Counted from the first letter of the stretch, positions 18,497-46,034 are shown. The stretch: DNA of 64,000 nt from a bacterium (GCA_003245715.1 QKCJ01000024.1:124001-188000), one strand, 5' to 3'. Numbers and translations: made by a program. Notes: generated by a model not told the origin, from the sequence alone.

Positions 18497-19441
18497 ATGG
18501 CTGAAGTATCATCAGATGCCAAGACTAAAATGCCTTATATCCCCGGGATTCAGAGCAGCGACAATCTCGGAGACACCTTCCTGTTTGTCATCGCTTTCAC
18601 AATTTCCGGGATTATTATTTTCGCTTACGTGCGCTGGCTTCAGCGCAAGCGCCGCAGCAATCTTGAAAGCATTGCCAATATCGAACAGCACCGGCCGGTT
18701 GCTGACGAGAAGTCGCGCTTTATCGCCTCAAAGCCCATAGCCAACAACTTGTCCGGAACCATGGTTTTCAGCCCCGGTCAGGGAATGAACGTATCTTTTC
18801 CGAGTAAGGGCAAAAATTTTGCATCAACGATTATCAATGTTTCGGCGGAGAGCTTTGTCATTACCTTACCGCGTGAAGACACCGATGACTTCATGCCCTC
18901 GGTTGGTGATATTGCCGCCTTCCACACCGTTAAGGACGGACGGAATCATAATTTCAAAACCAGCGTATTACAGGTCTTCAGCGGAGGCTTGCGCGCCTGC
19001 GCTTTCAGGCATACCGACAATATCGAGGTCACCGACCGGCGCAAGAAGACCAGAGTATCAGGTGAATCGCCGGCACTCTTTTCCTATATCCCGGCAAGCC
19101 TGATTAACAGCAACAAGATACCGTTTTCAGATATCTTCAAAAACATGCAGGGCTATATCCCCGCCAATATGCTTGATATCAGCACCGGTGGCTGCGCTAT
19201 GCGGACACGCTCCCCCCTGCATTTTAACGCCGGTGATCTGGTCGGAATCTACTCAACACTTCCGGATAGCGATGATGAGGAGTACTTTGTTCTTGGCGGC
19301 ATAATTTCAGCGCAGAAAAGCCCACGCAGCGAAGGCGGCGGATCAATTTTGAGCATTGAATTTCTTGGTGTTGAGGAAAAGACCAAAACCAAGCTACGTG
19401 AACATATTTCAAATATTATTGAGGACGAGGTAATCGAATAG
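18497..19441 (+). CDS. Membrane-anchored YcgR-like PilZ protein, c-di-GMP receptor
   Basis: 314 residues with one N-terminal membrane segment (about 28-47, LFVIAFTISGIIIFAYVRW), then a YcgR-type N-domain (about 85-185) and a PilZ domain. The c-di-GMP-binding motifs are DRRKKTRVS (RxxxR, about residue 180) and DISTGG (DxSxxG, about 228), both intact. Two-domain proteins of this type slow flagella or control secretion and polysaccharide synthesis when c-di-GMP rises. Membrane anchoring suggests a local partner. It sits between nifS and a second, smaller PilZ gene. Ribosome site GGAAATGGTG precedes the ATG. Confidence 0.82.
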   Translation: MAEVSSDAKTKMPYIPGIQSSDNLGDTFLFVIAFTISGIIIFAYVRWLQRKRRSNLESIANIEQHRPVADEKSRFIASKPIANNLSGTMVFSPGQGMNVSFPSKGKNFASTIINVSAESFVITLPREDTDDFMPSVGDIAAFHTVKDGRNHNFKTSVLQVFSGGLRACAFRHTDNIEVTDRRKKTRVSGESPALFSYIPASLINSNKIPFSDIFKNMQGYIPANMLDISTGGCAMRTRSPLHFNAGDLVGIYSTLPDSDDEEYFVLGGIISAQKSPRSEGGGSILSIEFLGVEEKTKTKLREHISNIIEDEVIE

Positions 19442-29693: not shown

Positions 29694-30887
29694 ATTTCAA
29701 AATCACCCTGTATATTGTAATTGAAAATTTTGAGAATACTTTTTTCTAACATTTTTTTTAACAAATATGCAATATTTATTCCACCACAACCTCAAGGTCA
29801 TACGTTATCGCGTTGCCTGATAAATAGTTGTTGTTTTTTCACTTTACTTATTTTTCATGCCACGAAATAATTGATTGTAGATGGAAAACATATAGGGAGG
29901 AAACACAATGGCTTCAAGTATTATATCAGGAATCCAATCTGACAAACTATTAAGCAAAATCATGAACTCATTATATGATGGCGTTTATTGCATGGATTTA
30001 GACCGTAACATTGTATTTTGGAATAATGCTGCAGAAAAATTAACTGGATATTCTCGTGATGAAGTCATTGGAAATTCTTGTGCGAATAATATCCTTAACC
30101 ATATATCAGAAGATGGCGTATGCTTATGCAAAGAAGGCTGCCCAGCAGTTAAATCTATGACTGACGGTCAAAATAGAGAGGTACTTGCATATTTACATCA
30201 TAAAGTTGGTTATAGGAGACCTGTGTATATCAGGACTAGCCCTATTGTTGATGAAAATGAAAACATTATTGGTGCTGTTGAAATCTTCTCTAGTGCATCA
30301 ATGTTTGTCGCAATGAAACAAACGAACGAACGATTAAAGAAACTTGCTTTTTTAGATGAACTAACGGAGCTTCCCAACAGACGTTTTGCCAATCAAACAT
30401 TAGAGGAATTTCTGTGGACTTTTTCAAATCACAACACTAAATTTGGTGTTGCCATTTATGACATTGACAACTTCAAAAAGATTAATGATACATACGGGCA
30501 TGATGTTGGAGATCAAGCACTCAAAATGGTTGCAAGTACATTAAAAATGGCTATACGTGAAAATGATGTTATTTGCCGATGGGGGGGAGAAGAGTTCTTG
30601 TTTATTTGTCATTGCAATAGCGAAAAGGAATTACTGAATATTTGTGATCGTCATAGAGTATTTGTTGAAAATAGTTTTATTGACAATAAAGGTGAGATTT
30701 TGACTGCAACTATTTCTGGGGGTAAGTGTTTTGTTTGTGAAAAGACTTCTATCAATGATTCTATAAAACGAGCAGATGAGAATTTATACACAAGCAAGCT
30801 ATCTGGGAAAAACCAAATACATTAGTTTCCACTAAAATCGGTTTATTTCCGTCATTAGCCATTTTCTTTGTAAAAACAACGTCTCTT
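29694..30887. mobile_element. AT-rich inserted segment carrying a PAS-GGDEF gene
   Basis: About 1.2 kb with base and codon use quite unlike its surroundings (A/T-ending codons, long A/T runs) interrupts a host gene. The six-base sequence CTTCAG occurs at both edges (29688-29693 and 30891-30896). I see no transposase and no long terminal inverted repeat, so the entry mechanism is unknown. Removing the segment exactly between the CTTCAG copies would not restore the host frame (the halves are offset by one base), so boundaries are approximate or a later indel occurred. Confidence 0.6.
29908..30825 (+). CDS. PAS-GGDEF diguanylate cyclase, horizontally acquired
   Basis: 305-residue cytoplasmic signalling protein. 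A PAS domain (about 15-130; GVYCMDLDRNIVFWNNAAEKLTGYS) includes a Cys-rich stretch with CLCKEGCP, then a short linker (LKKLAFLDELTELPNRR) leads into the GGDEF domain (about 145-300). The active-site loop is RWGGEEF, intact, so it should make c-di-GMP from two GTP. The usual RxxD inhibitory site five residues before GGEEF is not evident. A strong ribosome site AGGGAGG precedes the ATG. The gene is markedly AT-rich and sits inside an insertion that splits another gene, both signs of transfer. The PAS sensor ligand is unknown. Confidence 0.88.
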   Translation: MASSIISGIQSDKLLSKIMNSLYDGVYCMDLDRNIVFWNNAAEKLTGYSRDEVIGNSCANNILNHISEDGVCLCKEGCPAVKSMTDGQNREVLAYLHHKVGYRRPVYIRTSPIVDENENIIGAVEIFSSASMFVAMKQTNERLKKLAFLDELTELPNRRFANQTLEEFLWTFSNHNTKFGVAIYDIDNFKKINDTYGHDVGDQALKMVASTLKMAIRENDVICRWGGEEFLFICHCNSEKELLNICDRHRVFVENSFIDNKGEILTATISGGKCFVCEKTSINDSIKRADENLYTSKLSGKNQIH

Positions 30888-39642: not shown

Positions 39643-39885
39643 TCAAACCAGCTTTCATCAGGAAAAACAAAATCAATAAGCACCATTTTAATCTGATATT
39701 CATTAAAAGCAAGACATATACCGCCTTTCAAAATTCCCGGCAGAAAACAGGGCTGGAAAAACTTAAATTTCTGTCGTAAATTCAAAATCTGAATAATTTT
39801 ATTTTTCTTGTGCGAAAAAGAAAATAACCTTGATAAAGAATTTGATCTGTGCTTAAATATAGTTGTATCCTATTTTTACTCATTT

Positions 39886-41103
39886 ATGAATGGATTATTA
39901 TCCGTGACTGACTTTTCTTCAATCCGTTGTCTGTTAGTAGAGGACGAATCATTCCAGCAGGAAATTGCTGTTGTCGTTCTTAAACAGGCGGGGATAAATG
40001 ACATTTCAGTGGCAACCGACGGCCTTAAGGCTGTAGCGATGCTGGAGAAAGCGCAGGAAAAGGGCGCCCCATTTGAGCTTATTATTTCCGACCTTGGATT
40101 GCCTAATATGGATGGCGTTGAATTTATCCGTCATCTGGCAAACAACAATGTCAACTCAGGCATTATCATTATCAGTTCAATGGACAAGAAAATTATTGAT
40201 ACGGTGGAACTGGTTGCAAAGACACACGCGCTTAATATCCTCGGCTCAATCGAAAAGCCACTCAAACCCGCGGCAATCAAAGATCTCCTGACAAACATGA
40301 GCTGCACTATCACCCCAAAACAAAAGAGTGACAGCTATTCACTGGATGCTACAGACCTTCAGAATGCTATTGAACAAATGCATATTGAATCTTTTTTTCA
40401 GCCGAAATTCCACTTCAGCAATAAATCAGTGGCTGGCATGGAAGCACTCGCGCGCTGGCGCGACCCTGATCTTGGTTTTATCAGCCCCAATGTATTTATA
40501 CCGCTGGCTGAAAACAACGGGCTGATTTCACTGCTTACCGAGAGAATTCTAGAATGCGCAATTTCCGGAGCGTCACCGCTTATTGCGGCTAATCTTGTAC
40601 CGTCAGTCTCAATCAATGTCTCTGTTGACCTGCTGGATTCACTGAGCTTTCCGGATTATGTTTACAATATGACCAGAAAGTACGGCTTGGAACCAAAGGC
40701 TGTAGTTCTGGAAGTGACAGAGAGCCGGGGCATCTCTGACCTGGCCAAGGCGCTGGACAGTCTGGTGCGCCTGCGCATGAAGGGGTTCCGCCTCTCGCTT
40801 GATGATTACGGAACAGGCAGCTCTACACTTGAGCAGCTTTCACGAATACCTTTCAGCGAGCTTAAAATTGACCAGTCCTTTGTTACCGGCACCTGGGAAA
40901 AATCCGAGCAGCGGATCATTCTTGAGTCTACGGTAACGATGGGGCGCAACCTTGGCCTCTCTATTGTTGCTGAAGGAATTGAAACCACCGAGGACTGGAA
41001 CTATATTTCATCGCTTGGCTGTGACGAGGGACAGGGCTTTCTCATGTGCCGTCCGCTTCCGGTTTCAGACCTGGCGCCGTTTCTGGCCGGTTCATCCTGG
41101 TAG
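39886..41103 (+). CDS. Response regulator with EAL domain, c-di-GMP phosphodiesterase
   Basis: Receiver domain (about 12-135) with acidic pocket LVEDES and phosphoacceptor Asp69 in IISDLGLP, followed by an EAL domain (about 165-400). The EAL active site looks complete: GMEALARW, SINVSVD, LEVTES, SLDDYGTGSS, LKIDQSF, VAEGIET and DEGQGFL. Phosphorylation should control breakdown of c-di-GMP. I take ATG 39886; an in-frame TTG at 39808 and a GTG at 39904 are alternatives, and no start has a strong ribosome site. The next gene, 41 bases on, is a hybrid histidine kinase with a LOV-like PAS domain, so the two probably form one pathway. Confidence 0.88.
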   Translation: MNGLLSVTDFSSIRCLLVEDESFQQEIAVVVLKQAGINDISVATDGLKAVAMLEKAQEKGAPFELIISDLGLPNMDGVEFIRHLANNNVNSGIIIISSMDKKIIDTVELVAKTHALNILGSIEKPLKPAAIKDLLTNMSCTITPKQKSDSYSLDATDLQNAIEQMHIESFFQPKFHFSNKSVAGMEALARWRDPDLGFISPNVFIPLAENNGLISLLTERILECAISGASPLIAANLVPSVSINVSVDLLDSLSFPDYVYNMTRKYGLEPKAVVLEVTESRGISDLAKALDSLVRLRMKGFRLSLDDYGTGSSTLEQLSRIPFSELKIDQSFVTGTWEKSEQRIILESTVTMGRNLGLSIVAEGIETTEDWNYISSLGCDEGQGFLMCRPLPVSDLAPFLAGSSW

Positions 41104-41144
41104 CCAGCAAACCGGGCTCACAGACAAACAGATAGAAATCCGCC

Positions 41145-44100
41145 ATGAATGACTCAAGACTGGCAGCAGACATCACACCAATCGCACCAAGCCCAATCTG
41201 TCAGAGCAGGTTCAGTGGCCGGGTAATGCGCCGCTTTCTGCTTGTGATAATTCCTTTACTTGTCCTTTTTGGCGCCACGATGTATTTCCTCCGCGAATCA
41301 GAGATCAAAGACAAAACGCAACAACTTTCGCAGCGGGAAGCAAAAGGGGTAAGTTTTATCTATTACCTTATCATGCACGACCTACAGGATACCCTGTCTG
41401 AGATTAACAGCCTAAAGGACAATATTCATCTCATAAATTTCATCAACAATATTCAAAAAGAAGATAACCGCCTAAAGTTAATCGATGATCTCAAAAAGCT
41501 GGCCTACCTCAACCAGCATTATCTGCAAGTAAGATTACTCAATAACGCCGGCAAGGAAATAATCCGCATTAATAATGACGACAAGCAAATAACGTCTGTC
41601 GCTGAAGGGGCGCTGCAGGACAAGTCCGACAGGCTTTATTACAAGATGGGCAAAAATCTCAAACGGGATGAGCTTTACATTTCAACCTTTGACATCAATG
41701 TGGAAAAAAAAGAACTCCAGGTCAACAAGCCTGTCATCAGGTTTGTACAAAAAATCTATAACAATGCTGGCGCTGAAGTCGGCTTTATTGTTATCAACAT
41801 CAACGGCAATACCATTTTCTCGGAAATAAATGACACACCGATAGATATGCCCGGAGAAATTTATATCGTATCCTCCAAAGGCACATGGGTGCGAAGCTCA
41901 AAGTTACATGACCAGATTACCACAAACGATTTTATCAATAATGAATCAATGCTGCCAGAGAAGGCAAGGCCGCTCTTCCATGCCTCAAATTTTTCCGATA
42001 CCTTCAGTACCAGCTGGGATATTATCGACGGCAGCACCAGCGGGCAATTTCATAATGCCGAGGGGTTATTCACATATATCATTGTGACAACCGAAGCCAT
42101 AAACAATTTCCAGCATGACCACACAATCCTTGACCTTTCCAAAAACCAGCCCCGTGAACAAACCGGTGAGGGTTGGTATATCATCTCCCATATCAGCCAA
42201 TACATGATAACCCAGCAGGCAAAGCTGATAGATAACAACTACTTCCCGATGATACTGGCAATGTTGATTCTGATTCTCCTGCTGTCAGTCTACGCCTGTT
42301 ATGTCTGGACCAAACGTGACGATACAATAACGGAACTAAATATCCGCTTCCGGGCAATTGAATCTGCCAGTAACGGCATCACCATCGCTGACGCGCGTGC
42401 CGAGGACATGCCGCTGATTTACGTCAATCCCGCTTTCACCAAAATCACCGGTTACACCGCCGAGGAAGCTCTGGGCAGAAACTGTCGTTTCCTGCACAGA
42501 CAGGCCGCCGACCAGCGGGGGCTTGATGTTATCAGAAAATCATTTGCCAAGGGCAATGAATCAAAGGAACTGCTGCTGAATTACAAAAAGAATGGCAGCG
42601 TCTTCTGGAATGAATTGTTAATCGCGCCTATCCGCGATAACAACAACAGAACAACCCATTATGTCGGAATCCAGAATGATGTTACCGAGCGGGTACTGGC
42701 TGAGAAAGCTTTGCGTGAGAGTGAATTCCGTTATCACAGTCTAGCCACGATCTCTCCGGTAGGGATGTTCAGGGCCGACTTCTCCGGAGAGTTGCTCTAT
42801 ACCAATGAACGTTGGCGTGAACTGACGGGGGTCTCGGATAATGATACTGAGAGCAAAGGCTGGAATGATATCATCTTAAAAAGTGACCAGGAAAAATTCT
42901 GGCAACAGTGGAATGTCTCGGTGGCAATGAAAGAGGTTTTCTCACTACAGTTTAGGATCATCCATTCAGACGGCAACATCAAATGGCTCTGGGGGATTGC
43001 CCGCCTGCAGGAACAGGAAATTGAAGGGAAAAAGACATATGTCGGTATTATTGCCGACATCACCGAATTACGCGAGACGCAGAATGAGCTATCACTCTTC
43101 CGCCAGCTTGTTGACCATCTCACAGACTCGGTATTTATAATTGAAACCGAGAGCGGCAATATTATTGATGTCAACGAGAGCGCCTGCAGAAGCCTGCTGT
43201 ACAGCCACGAAACACTCTGCACCAAAAAGATCTGGGAAATTCAGGAGAATATCAACTCTCATTCATCATGGGAGAAGCATCTACTTATCAGCGCCACACG
43301 CGAAGACACGGTATATACAGACCTCCATAAGCGTAATGACGGGAGTGAATTCCCGGTTGAAATTAGCCAGAGTAATGTCACTCTTGGCGAGGTAAATTAC
43401 ACCCTCACCGTGGTAAGAAATATCACCGAAAGAAGAAACATTGAAAACCAGTCCAGAGAACACGCCAAAGCGCTGGCAATTATGGCAGACATGGCCGGCC
43501 CGATCAACCAGAGCACGACCGCATTCTCCCTGCTCAGTGATTGTGCAAAAGTCATCGCCAAACACCTGCCCCAGGCCAGCATCACCATCTGGAGCCATAA
43601 CAATGCTGATGAGAAATTCAAGCTGATCCTGCATGAAGGGGCGGCTTTTGAAAATTCAGCCCCGACTACACGTATTCTGGCCGAGTCTGCCCTTATTGAA
43701 AATATCGCGAAAAAGATGACCGCCTTAAGCATCAACGACTTATCACGCCAGCCGCTGGAAGGACATAACTGGCTGCCGGAAAATAACATAAAAGCGCTTA
43801 TCGCACTGCCGGTCATGACCGGTGACAAGTGCTTTGCTATTATCGCCGTATACTTCCGGGATATTTTTTCAAAACAGATCGGTCTTGGCCTTAACAGCCT
43901 TGCAGTGCAGATCGAAGCCGGAGTCAACCGGCTGCAGGCGGTGAATGAACTGCATACAGCCAAAACTGAGGCTGAAAGAGCAAATAAGGCCAAAGCAAAG
44001 TTCCTGGCCTTTATGAGCCATGAAATCCGCACCCCGCTTAATGGTGTTATTTCAATAACCGAGATGCTGCTTGAAAGTCAGCTGAAAACGAAGCAGGCAG

Positions 44101-46034
44101 AATATGCGTCGACGATTCTGTCTTCCTCTGAATCGCTGCTCTTTCTGATTAATGACATCCTTGATTTCTCGAAAATTGAGGCGGGCAAGCTTGAGATCAA
44201 GAACCAGAAATTCAATTTAAAGGAATTAAGTTACGAGGTCTGCCAGCTTTTATCGGCAAGGGTGCGCCTGAAAAATATCGAAATCATAAATAATTACCCG
44301 GATGACTGCCCCGAAGTCTTTATCGGCGACCCCCTAAGGATACGCCAGATAATTCTCAACCTTGCGGGTAACGCCATAAAATTCACCTCAAATGGGTATG
44401 TGAAAATAAGTTTCCGCTCGACAACAACCGACCACGAGCAATCCAGAATCATCATCGAAATTGAAGACACCGGCTCAGGCATCCCCCCCCACGCCAGAGA
44501 AAAAATCTTCAACATGTTCACCCAGGCAGACAACAATCCAACCAGCCACGAAGAAGGAACCGGGCTTGGTCTGGCGATAACCAAATTCCTGACCTCAATG
44601 ATGTCCGGCACCATTGACTTCCGTGAACGCGAAGGTGGCGGAACAATTTTTCAGGTTGTGTTGCCACTGGCGCAACTCAGACACAAAGCCAAACCCGGTT
44701 ACAATCTGTCTCTGCTTAACCGGCTCAACGTCGCATTGTTAGGCAGCAACGAAACCAATCTTGACATCTATTCAGACATTCTCGGACTTTATAATATTTA
44801 TCATTCAAAATTCAAATGCCCGAGTGACAATGAAGAACTTCTCACCAAGCAGATGGCTGGCACAATAAACGCTGATGTTCTGATTATTGATTTCACCCCC
44901 AAAGCGTTTGATAAATTTGATTTCAAAAATATCATTTCAAAGTTTCCATCTGCGCCGAAATATATTATTGGCCTCTGCCCCACCAAGCTCCACGCACAGG
45001 TAAAATCGACTGGTTTCTTCCGCACCTTCACCAAACCCGTCACCGAAGACAATATCATCACAGCCCTTGACGCGGTTGCACTTGATCTTTACGACGACAA
45101 CAGGAGCATCAATGCCCGCGAAATCCTCAAGGAAAGCGATTTCACCTCAGACTATAACTTTAAGCTCAGAATCCTTTTTGTTGACGACCATGTCATCAAT
45201 CAGGAAACAGGCAAGATCGTTCTCGGCGCACTTGGCTGCACTACCGACATCGCCCAGAACGGCAAGGAAGCGCTCGAACTTTACTCAGAGAGTGACTACG
45301 ACCTGATCTTCATGGATTGCTATATGCCGGTTATGGGAGGATATACCGCCACTACTGAAATCAGAAAAATGCAGAAGCGGCAAAACCGTCCGCACATTCC
45401 GATTGTGGCAATGACTGCCAGCGCCTTTGATGATGACAGGAAAAACTGTCTTGAGGCCGGCATGGATGAGCATCTCTGCAAACCAGTTAAAAAGTCCGAG
45501 TATATTGAGGTAATAAAAAAACTGGTCAAGCCGGCAAGGGATGATAATGCCGCGCCTGAGGATAATGAAAAAAATACCAGCCTGCAACCTCAGAGGCAAA
45601 CGGATAACCCTGAGACAGAGAACGACATTGACATTATCGACATTCCAGAAACAACCGGGGATAGTGTTCGAGTAGCGACCTCTGACAGTGCGGATGCGGT
45701 TGTTGACCTGAGCAATATGCTTGAACAGATTGGCGGCAATGCCGAACTGATGAAATCCCTGCTTGAAAAATTCATCTCCTCACACAGCGAGGACCGGGTG
45801 AAGCTATTCAATCTTTTTGCCCAGAAAAACATCAAACAACTGTCACTCACCGCACATCGCATGAAGGGCGCAGCCGCTATTCTCGGTGCCGACAAACTAT
45901 CTGAAACCTGTGCCAAACTTCAGGTAGCTGATGAAAACACCGACTGGGAAATCATTACAGATCTTATTCATTCCTTCAAATCCCAGTCAGACGATGTAAT
46001 TACTTTTGTTAAAGAACAAATCAATAACGCCTGA
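41145..46034 (+). CDS. Hybrid sensor histidine kinase with LOV-type PAS, REC and HPt domains
   Basis: 1629 residues. Membrane segments at about 31-48 and 368-388 flank a periplasmic sensor domain of about 310 residues. Cytoplasmic order: a first PAS (about 398-520) with the LOV signature GRNCRFLH (Cys447), LLNYKKNGSVFWN and VGIQNDVT; two further PAS domains (about 523-650 and 655-770); a GAF-like domain (about 790-935); HisKA with MSHEIRTPLNG (His959); HATPase with NLAGNAIKF and GTGLGLAIT; a degenerate receiver (about 1190-1310); a true receiver with Asp1391 (LIFMDCYMP); and an HPt domain with His1571 (TAHRMKGAA). A full phosphorelay is thus encoded. The upstream EAL regulator is the likely output. 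Blue-light sensing is inference from the LOV motif. Confidence 0.88.
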   Translation: MNDSRLAADITPIAPSPICQSRFSGRVMRRFLLVIIPLLVLFGATMYFLRESEIKDKTQQLSQREAKGVSFIYYLIMHDLQDTLSEINSLKDNIHLINFINNIQKEDNRLKLIDDLKKLAYLNQHYLQVRLLNNAGKEIIRINNDDKQITSVAEGALQDKSDRLYYKMGKNLKRDELYISTFDINVEKKELQVNKPVIRFVQKIYNNAGAEVGFIVININGNTIFSEINDTPIDMPGEIYIVSSKGTWVRSSKLHDQITTNDFINNESMLPEKARPLFHASNFSDTFSTSWDIIDGSTSGQFHNAEGLFTYIIVTTEAINNFQHDHTILDLSKNQPREQTGEGWYIISHISQYMITQQAKLIDNNYFPMILAMLILILLLSVYACYVWTKRDDTITELNIRFRAIESASNGITIADARAEDMPLIYVNPAFTKITGYTAEEALGRNCRFLHRQAADQRGLDVIRKSFAKGNESKELLLNYKKNGSVFWNELLIAPIRDNNNRTTHYVGIQNDVTERVLAEKALRESEFRYHSLATISPVGMFRADFSGELLYTNERWRELTGVSDNDTESKGWNDIILKSDQEKFWQQWNVSVAMKEVFSLQFRIIHSDGNIKWLWGIARLQEQEIEGKKTYVGIIADITELRETQNELSLFRQLVDHLTDSVFIIETESGNIIDVNESACRSLLYSHETLCTKKIWEIQENINSHSSWEKHLLISATREDTVYTDLHKRNDGSEFPVEISQSNVTLGEVNYTLTVVRNITERRNIENQSREHAKALAIMADMAGPINQSTTAFSLLSDCAKVIAKHLPQASITIWSHNNADEKFKLILHEGAAFENSAPTTRILAESALIENIAKKMTALSINDLSRQPLEGHNWLPENNIKALIALPVMTGDKCFAIIAVYFRDIFSKQIGLGLNSLAVQIEAGVNRLQAVNELHTAKTEAERANKAKAKFLAFMSHEIRTPLNGVISITEMLLESQLKTKQAEYASTILSSSESLLFLINDILDFSKIEAGKLEIKNQKFNLKELSYEVCQLLSARVRLKNIEIINNYPDDCPEVFIGDPLRIRQIILNLAGNAIKFTSNGYVKISFRSTTTDHEQSRIIIEIEDTGSGIPPHAREKIFNMFTQADNNPTSHEEGTGLGLAITKFLTSMMSGTIDFREREGGGTIFQVVLPLAQLRHKAKPGYNLSLLNRLNVALLGSNETNLDIYSDILGLYNIYHSKFKCPSDNEELLTKQMAGTINADVLIIDFTPKAFDKFDFKNIISKFPSAPKYIIGLCPTKLHAQVKSTGFFRTFTKPVTEDNIITALDAVALDLYDDNRSINAREILKESDFTSDYNFKLRILFVDDHVINQETGKIVLGALGCTTDIAQNGKEALELYSESDYDLIFMDCYMPVMGGYTATTEIRKMQKRQNRPHIPIVAMTASAFDDDRKNCLEAGMDEHLCKPVKKSEYIEVIKKLVKPARDDNAAPEDNEKNTSLQPQRQTDNPETENDIDIIDIPETTGDSVRVATSDSADAVVDLSNMLEQIGGNAELMKSLLEKFISSHSEDRVKLFNLFAQKNIKQLSLTAHRMKGAAAILGADKLSETCAKLQVADENTDWEIITDLIHSFKSQSDDVITFVKEQINNA

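Follow-up and report, generated by a model that had tools for sequence, protein, structure and literature searches.

A gene pair at positions 39886-46034 raises the question of whether blue light could control c-di-GMP through a phosphorelay in a bacterium that is probably anaerobic. The window (the whole stretch of DNA that was analysed, 64 000 nucleotides, QKCJ01000024.1:124001-188000 of assembly GCA_003245715.1) had been described in a sequence-only reading, which proposed that a LOV hybrid kinase sets the phosphorylation state of a neighbouring REC-EAL phosphodiesterase. The domains of the two proteins, the identity of the LOV domain, the genomic setting and the relatives of the pair were analysed.

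Organization of the gene pair

The pair and the signalling domains of the kinase were located as follows.

39886-41103, + strand: REC-EAL response regulator of the PvrR/RocR/VieA type (Response_reg and EAL, Pfam)
41145-46034, + strand: unorthodox hybrid histidine kinase, 1629 aa (ORF, Pfam and sequence reading)
42336-42704, + strand: LOV domain of the kinase (residues ~398-520; Cys447 codon at 42483-42485)
43989-44672, + strand: HisKA and HATPase_c of the kinase (residues 949-1176; His959 in SHEIRTPLNG)
45171-45515, + strand: REC of the kinase (residues 1343-1457; Asp1391 in FMDCYMPVMGG)
45759-45959, + strand: Hpt of the kinase (residues 1539-1605; His1571 in AHRMKGAA)

The two genes lie on the same strand, 41 bases apart, and form an isolated pair since the genes on either side are on the opposite strand. 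They are probably co-transcribed. The start codon of the REC-EAL gene is uncertain (ATG at 39886, or TTG at 39808 for a longer frame). The phospho-acceptor D69 is present in the REC-EAL protein and the EAL catalytic motifs are complete (MEALARW, LDDYGTGSS, LKIDQ and VAEGIET). Judged by its sequence, this protein is a c-di-GMP phosphodiesterase of the PvrR/RocR/VieA type, with an active site predicted to be intact. It aligned over its full length with the PvrR model NF052596 (282.9 bits). The equivalog cut-off of the model, 580 bits, is not reached by this score, and the protein is considered to be of the same type as PvrR and not PvrR itself. Apart from the start codon, the earlier description of a REC-EAL gene 41 bases ahead of the kinase, with D69 and an intact EAL site, was borne out.

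The domains of the kinase are arranged in the order TM1, Cache-type periplasmic sensor, TM2, LOV, PAS, PAS, GAF-like, HisKA, HATPase, degenerate REC-like segment, REC and Hpt. The Cache-type sensor (residues 85-317, 65.6 bits, Pfam) is bordered by hydrophobic stretches at residues 23-41 and 361-379. With the second membrane helix at 361-379, the LOV domain begins directly after it. Pfam gave a PAS_9 match at residues 411-515, two more PAS domains downstream, a weak GAF match at residues ~800-905, HisKA at 949-1014 and HATPase at 1061-1176. The segment at residues ~1205-1325 was matched by no Pfam model; by its position, it appears to be a degenerate receiver (LIIDF, FTKPV). HisKA, HATPase, REC and Hpt are all present together with the predicted phospho-residues His959, Asp1391 and His1571, and on this reading of the sequence the kinase is an unorthodox hybrid histidine kinase of the BvgS/ArcB type.

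Identity of the LOV domain

A 144-residue fragment of the kinase carrying the LOV domain was compared with PDB sequences and the best matches were LOV proteins (top E 1.9e-34). With the NCBIfam models, the fragment scored 137.4 bits for YtvA_fam and 120.4 bits for the LOV-kinase model, against 76.5 bits for the generic sensory_box model, which places YtvA_fam 60 bits ahead of generic PAS. This is the opposite of the low LOV score that the sequence-only reading had named as a refutation. As an internal control, the two PAS domains that follow the LOV domain in the kinase matched none of the LOV models. The whole-protein equivalog cut-offs of the LOV models were not reached by the fragment, as expected for an isolated domain. 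An AlphaFold model of the fragment (32-sequence alignment) had a pLDDT of 94.6 and contained flanking N- and C-terminal helices (fragment residues 2-19 and 126-143). The top 50 Foldseek matches of this model were all LOV structures. The closest was Meiothermus MrLOVe (TM 0.89, rmsd 1.1 Å), and the rmsd to crystallised LOVs was 1.1-1.4 Å, with TM values of 0.83-0.89 for the best matches. A generic PAS domain was ruled out by the PDB matches, by the scores of the LOV and PAS models and by Foldseek. By sequence and predicted fold, kinase residues ~398-520 are thus a LOV domain and not merely a PAS domain, in agreement with the sequence-only reading.

The LOV motifs of the kinase are GRNCRFLH (444), LNYKK (478), FWNEL (487) and GIQND (508). 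By alignment, the flavin pocket contains Cys447, R448 and R464 (VIRKSF) on the phosphate side, N479, N489 and the switch residue Q510, so that the Cys, the phosphate Arg, both Asn and the switch Gln named earlier were all found in the 1629-residue protein. The last Gln of the NCRFLQ motif had been described as the only residue changed. The replacement is real (NCRFLH), but two further positions depart from the phototropin/YtvA consensus, the T30 equivalent being Ala and the N37 equivalent Met. These two positions vary naturally among Cys-bearing LOVs. Among the 48 Cys-bearing LOV matches collected, the last motif residue was Gln in 45 and His in none. As this His is absent from all 48 of these LOVs, weaker FMN binding is possible. 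A LOV domain broken by the Gln to His change is unsupported since the equivalent YtvA variant, Q66H, still photocycles. In wet E. coli cells, its dark recovery takes 753 s and that of the wild type 2100 s (PMC4161478), so that its photocycle is ~2.8 times faster. YtvA T30A and N37C likewise photocycle (PMC4161478). The LOV sensor is apparently intact and of the blue-light type, judging from sequence and model, and we infer that it binds flavin and responds to light. Surveys requiring NCRFLQ would overlook this likely functional NCRFLH domain.

Variation in the same residues was observed in other proteins. In betaproteobacterial-type GGDEF-EAL proteins (L009, L010, L012, L013, L014, L016 and L018), the Cys is replaced by Gly (GKNGRFLQ) and the other pocket residues are kept. 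These are naturally Cys-less LOVs; their close relatives L011, L015 and L023 keep the Cys and lose the next Arg. Four planctomycete LOV-like domains (L119, L127, L128 and L140) retain the Cys and carry Leu or Val in place of the switch Gln, which makes them candidates for natural Gln-less LOVs. Another one (L124) has NMRMMH, with the Cys changed to Met and His at the last place of the motif.

Other c-di-GMP genes

The host genome contains 11 GGDEF loci. EAL matches are few: besides the REC-EAL gene, two loci matched more weakly, and one of these is interrupted by an in-frame stop. Other genes of c-di-GMP signalling in the window are listed below.

29908-30825, + strand: PAS-GGDEF diguanylate cyclase
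18497-19441, + strand: PilZ protein (YcgR-type N part), 28.4 bits
19465-19824, + strand: PilZ protein, 32.3 bits

The PAS-GGDEF protein is a possible source of c-di-GMP for the pair, through a presumed functional link. Its gene has a GC content of 34.6% and a GC3 of 27.5%, versus ~49% and 51-61% in the other window genes checked, and was for this reason probably acquired recently. The two PilZ genes reported earlier at 18.5-19.8 kb are real, with modest scores (cut-off 22.5 bits). As a conjecture, their products could be receptors for the c-di-GMP set by the pair.

Host and distribution

In an RpoB tree, the genome containing the window fell into one clade (100/100) with same-phylum genomes and Rhodopirellula, which itself joins family f30 at 100/100. 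This grouping points to the phylum Planctomycetota. COX1 and CydA (cytochrome bd subunit I) were searched for in the 91%-complete genome and neither was found; both searches were positive in control genomes. The missing terminal-oxidase genes support, but do not prove, the earlier suggestion that the host is probably anaerobic.

A Cys-bearing LOV was found in none of 15 genomes of the same family, two of the same order and 11 others of the same class (28 in total, many of them incomplete MAGs), where the best matches of the LOV search were PAS domains of the NPRILK type. Neither a comparable full-length REC-EAL nor the operon itself was found in the same 28 genomes of the host's class. In the 392-genome sample of the phylum, a Cys-bearing LOV was present in ~14 other genomes. 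Proteins with LOV or BLUF had already been recorded in Planctomycetes, Verrucomicrobia and Lentisphaerae by an older survey (PMC4844311). The sequence-only reading had called a light sensor unexpected in a PVC organism, which was overstated given these records; a Cys-bearing LOV is nevertheless unusual for the family and class of the host. The absence of both the operon and a Cys-bearing LOV from the 28 genomes suggests that the pair is a probably acquired accessory. Inheritance of the LOV within its own planctomycete lineage is unsupported by this sample (0/28, many being incomplete MAGs). The GC content of the pair (46-48%) is close to that of the window (49%), so that the acquisition would not be recent or the donor would have had a similar composition. 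In the LOV tree, the branch of the kinase's LOV domain is long and divergent, at 0.82 changes per column, and no donor was resolved among proteobacterial, actinobacterial and planctomycete LOVs. The second-best LOV-like match of the host itself (L095, G000:C28:26994-27380) is an NPRILK PAS domain without the Cys, located in a 2531-aa hybrid kinase frame.

Proposed mechanism and alternative explanations

We consider it fairly probable that the two proteins form a phosphorelay of the PvrSR/BvgS type, in which the LOV domain stands in line between the Cache sensor and the kinase core and light acts on c-di-GMP hydrolysis through the REC-EAL protein. Since the pairing of a REC-EAL protein with an unorthodox kinase recurs elsewhere, a light-to-EAL phosphorelay is the natural reading. 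Blue light absorbed by oxidised FMN would produce an adduct with Cys447. The signal would pass via the C-terminal helix to the PAS-PAS-GAF segment and shift the kinase/phosphatase balance at His959. His959 would then hand its phosphate to Asp1391, from which it would reach Asp69 of the adjacent REC-EAL protein, the presumed specific partner of the kinase, by way of His1571. Phosphorylation at Asp69 would change the rate of c-di-GMP hydrolysis by the EAL enzyme, upwards or downwards.

What purpose an apparently complete LOV sensor serves in a reducing cytoplasm is a question raised by this organism, in which no terminal oxidase was detected. Reduced LOV flavin is photochemically silent and photochemistry needs oxidised flavin (PMC4844311). 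As the host looks anaerobic, redox gating or sensing is therefore the main rival. The LOV domain would be mainly a redox sensor, or a redox-gated light sensor: FMN would be reduced and dark-silent in the oxygen-free cytoplasm, and its oxidation, for example on exposure to oxygen, would switch the kinase or confer light sensitivity. Beside the missing heme-copper and bd oxidase genes, this is consistent with LOV midpoint potentials of -250/-300 mV, which are near cellular potentials, and with the description of LovK as redox-conditioned (PMC4844311). Cys-less LOV proteins are also able to signal via flavin photoreduction (PMC4682037). However, the kinase described here has retained its switch Gln as well as the Cys that would form the adduct, whereas close Cys-less relatives (GKNGRFLQ, Sulfuricellaceae) have lost only the Cys and kept the rest, which suggests selection for photochemistry. 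We hold a mainly redox role to be unlikely, although it deserves serious attention. A combined light-and-redox gate, in which blue light would reset c-di-GMP via the REC-EAL protein only when FMN is oxidised by oxygen or oxidants, is put forward tentatively and seems rather unlikely. If true, such a gate would tell the organism that its surroundings are both lit and oxic and are better left or avoided.

The kinase also has other potential inputs. The Cache-type sensor, the two further PAS domains and the GAF-like stretch are in the same chain, and comparable REC-EAL/kinase pairs use CHASE, solute-binding or propeller sensors. The kinase could thus be driven mainly by its periplasmic sensor or by the other PAS/GAF domains, with the LOV, inherited through domain shuffling, as no more than a passive link or a modulator of minor weight. 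The conservation of all catalytic LOV residues on so long a branch would be unexpected without a function, and we regard a passive LOV as decidedly improbable. Doubt may also be raised about the partner: in P. aeruginosa, PvrS acts on RcsB and not on its neighbour PvrR, with RcsC as the relay (PMC3842833), so that gene adjacency is no proof of partnership. By analogy with PvrSR/RcsCB, the true partner of the kinase could be another response regulator, and the REC-EAL protein could be set by other kinases or act as an antagonist. The isolation of the two genes between opposite-strand neighbours argues against this, as does the Hpt of the kinase, a domain that PvrS does not have. Another partner therefore appears improbable, and the phosphorelay from the LOV kinase to its neighbour is retained as the preferred reading.

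Comparison with known systems

Relatives of the REC-EAL protein (38-39% identity, full-length) adjoin a HisKA-HATPase-REC-Hpt kinase in Vibrio crassostreae, with a CHASE sensor, and in Paroceanicella profunda, where the pair is plasmid-borne and the kinase has HAMP and PAS. In these two pairs, no LOV was seen and the kinase gene is upstream of the REC-EAL gene, whereas it is downstream here. In Aeromonas, a REC-EAL relative is beside a kinase of the solute-binding type, and REC and Hpt are encoded by the frame that comes after this kinase. REC-bearing kinases also adjoin REC-EAL genes in two planctomycetes (G322 and G185). These pairings indicate a known module with interchangeable sensors, of which LOV is the input here. 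The G322 kinase (L181:8585-11347) ends, behind its receiver, with a hemerythrin domain, which suggests, on sequence grounds, that this form of the module senses oxygen or NO.

The P. aeruginosa PvrS-PvrR system (with RcsCB) resembles the pair in having a kinase gene beside a REC-EAL regulator and in the full-length similarity of the regulator to the PvrR model. It differs in that PvrS is a hybrid with neither Hpt nor LOV and in the reversed gene order. YtvA and the LOV histidine kinases (Brucella LOV-HK, Caulobacter LovK) share the LOV domain, the Cys and the FMN-site residues and, for the LOV histidine kinases, the kinase output. In contrast with these proteins, the kinase described here has its LOV behind a transmembrane Cache sensor, an unorthodox phosphorelay and the NCRFLH motif.

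Light is known to be coupled to c-di-GMP in other architectures, such as the LOV-GGDEF-EAL protein of Synechococcus SL2 (reviewed in PMC8846402). The LOV-GGDEF-EAL proteins (Synechococcus SL2, betaproteobacterial) are among the nearest LOV sequences to that of the kinase (50-55% identity) and likewise tie a blue-light LOV to c-di-GMP turnover. They do so in one polypeptide and with no phosphorelay, and many of the betaproteobacterial ones are without the Cys. In the literature searched, no description was found of a REC-EAL phosphodiesterase that is paired with a LOV kinase. Control of c-di-GMP by a LOV kinase has a precedent in Erythrobacter flavus 21-3, where LOV-1477 acts on the REC-bearing c-di-GMP enzyme DGC-2902 (PMC12172448); its output is a diguanylate cyclase (synthesis) and not an EAL phosphodiesterase. 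Both halves of the pair are known kinds of protein, and it is their combination and their host that are unusual. To the connections already known between c-di-GMP and blue light, the pair would contribute a version that is built on a phosphorelay and has a phosphodiesterase as its output.
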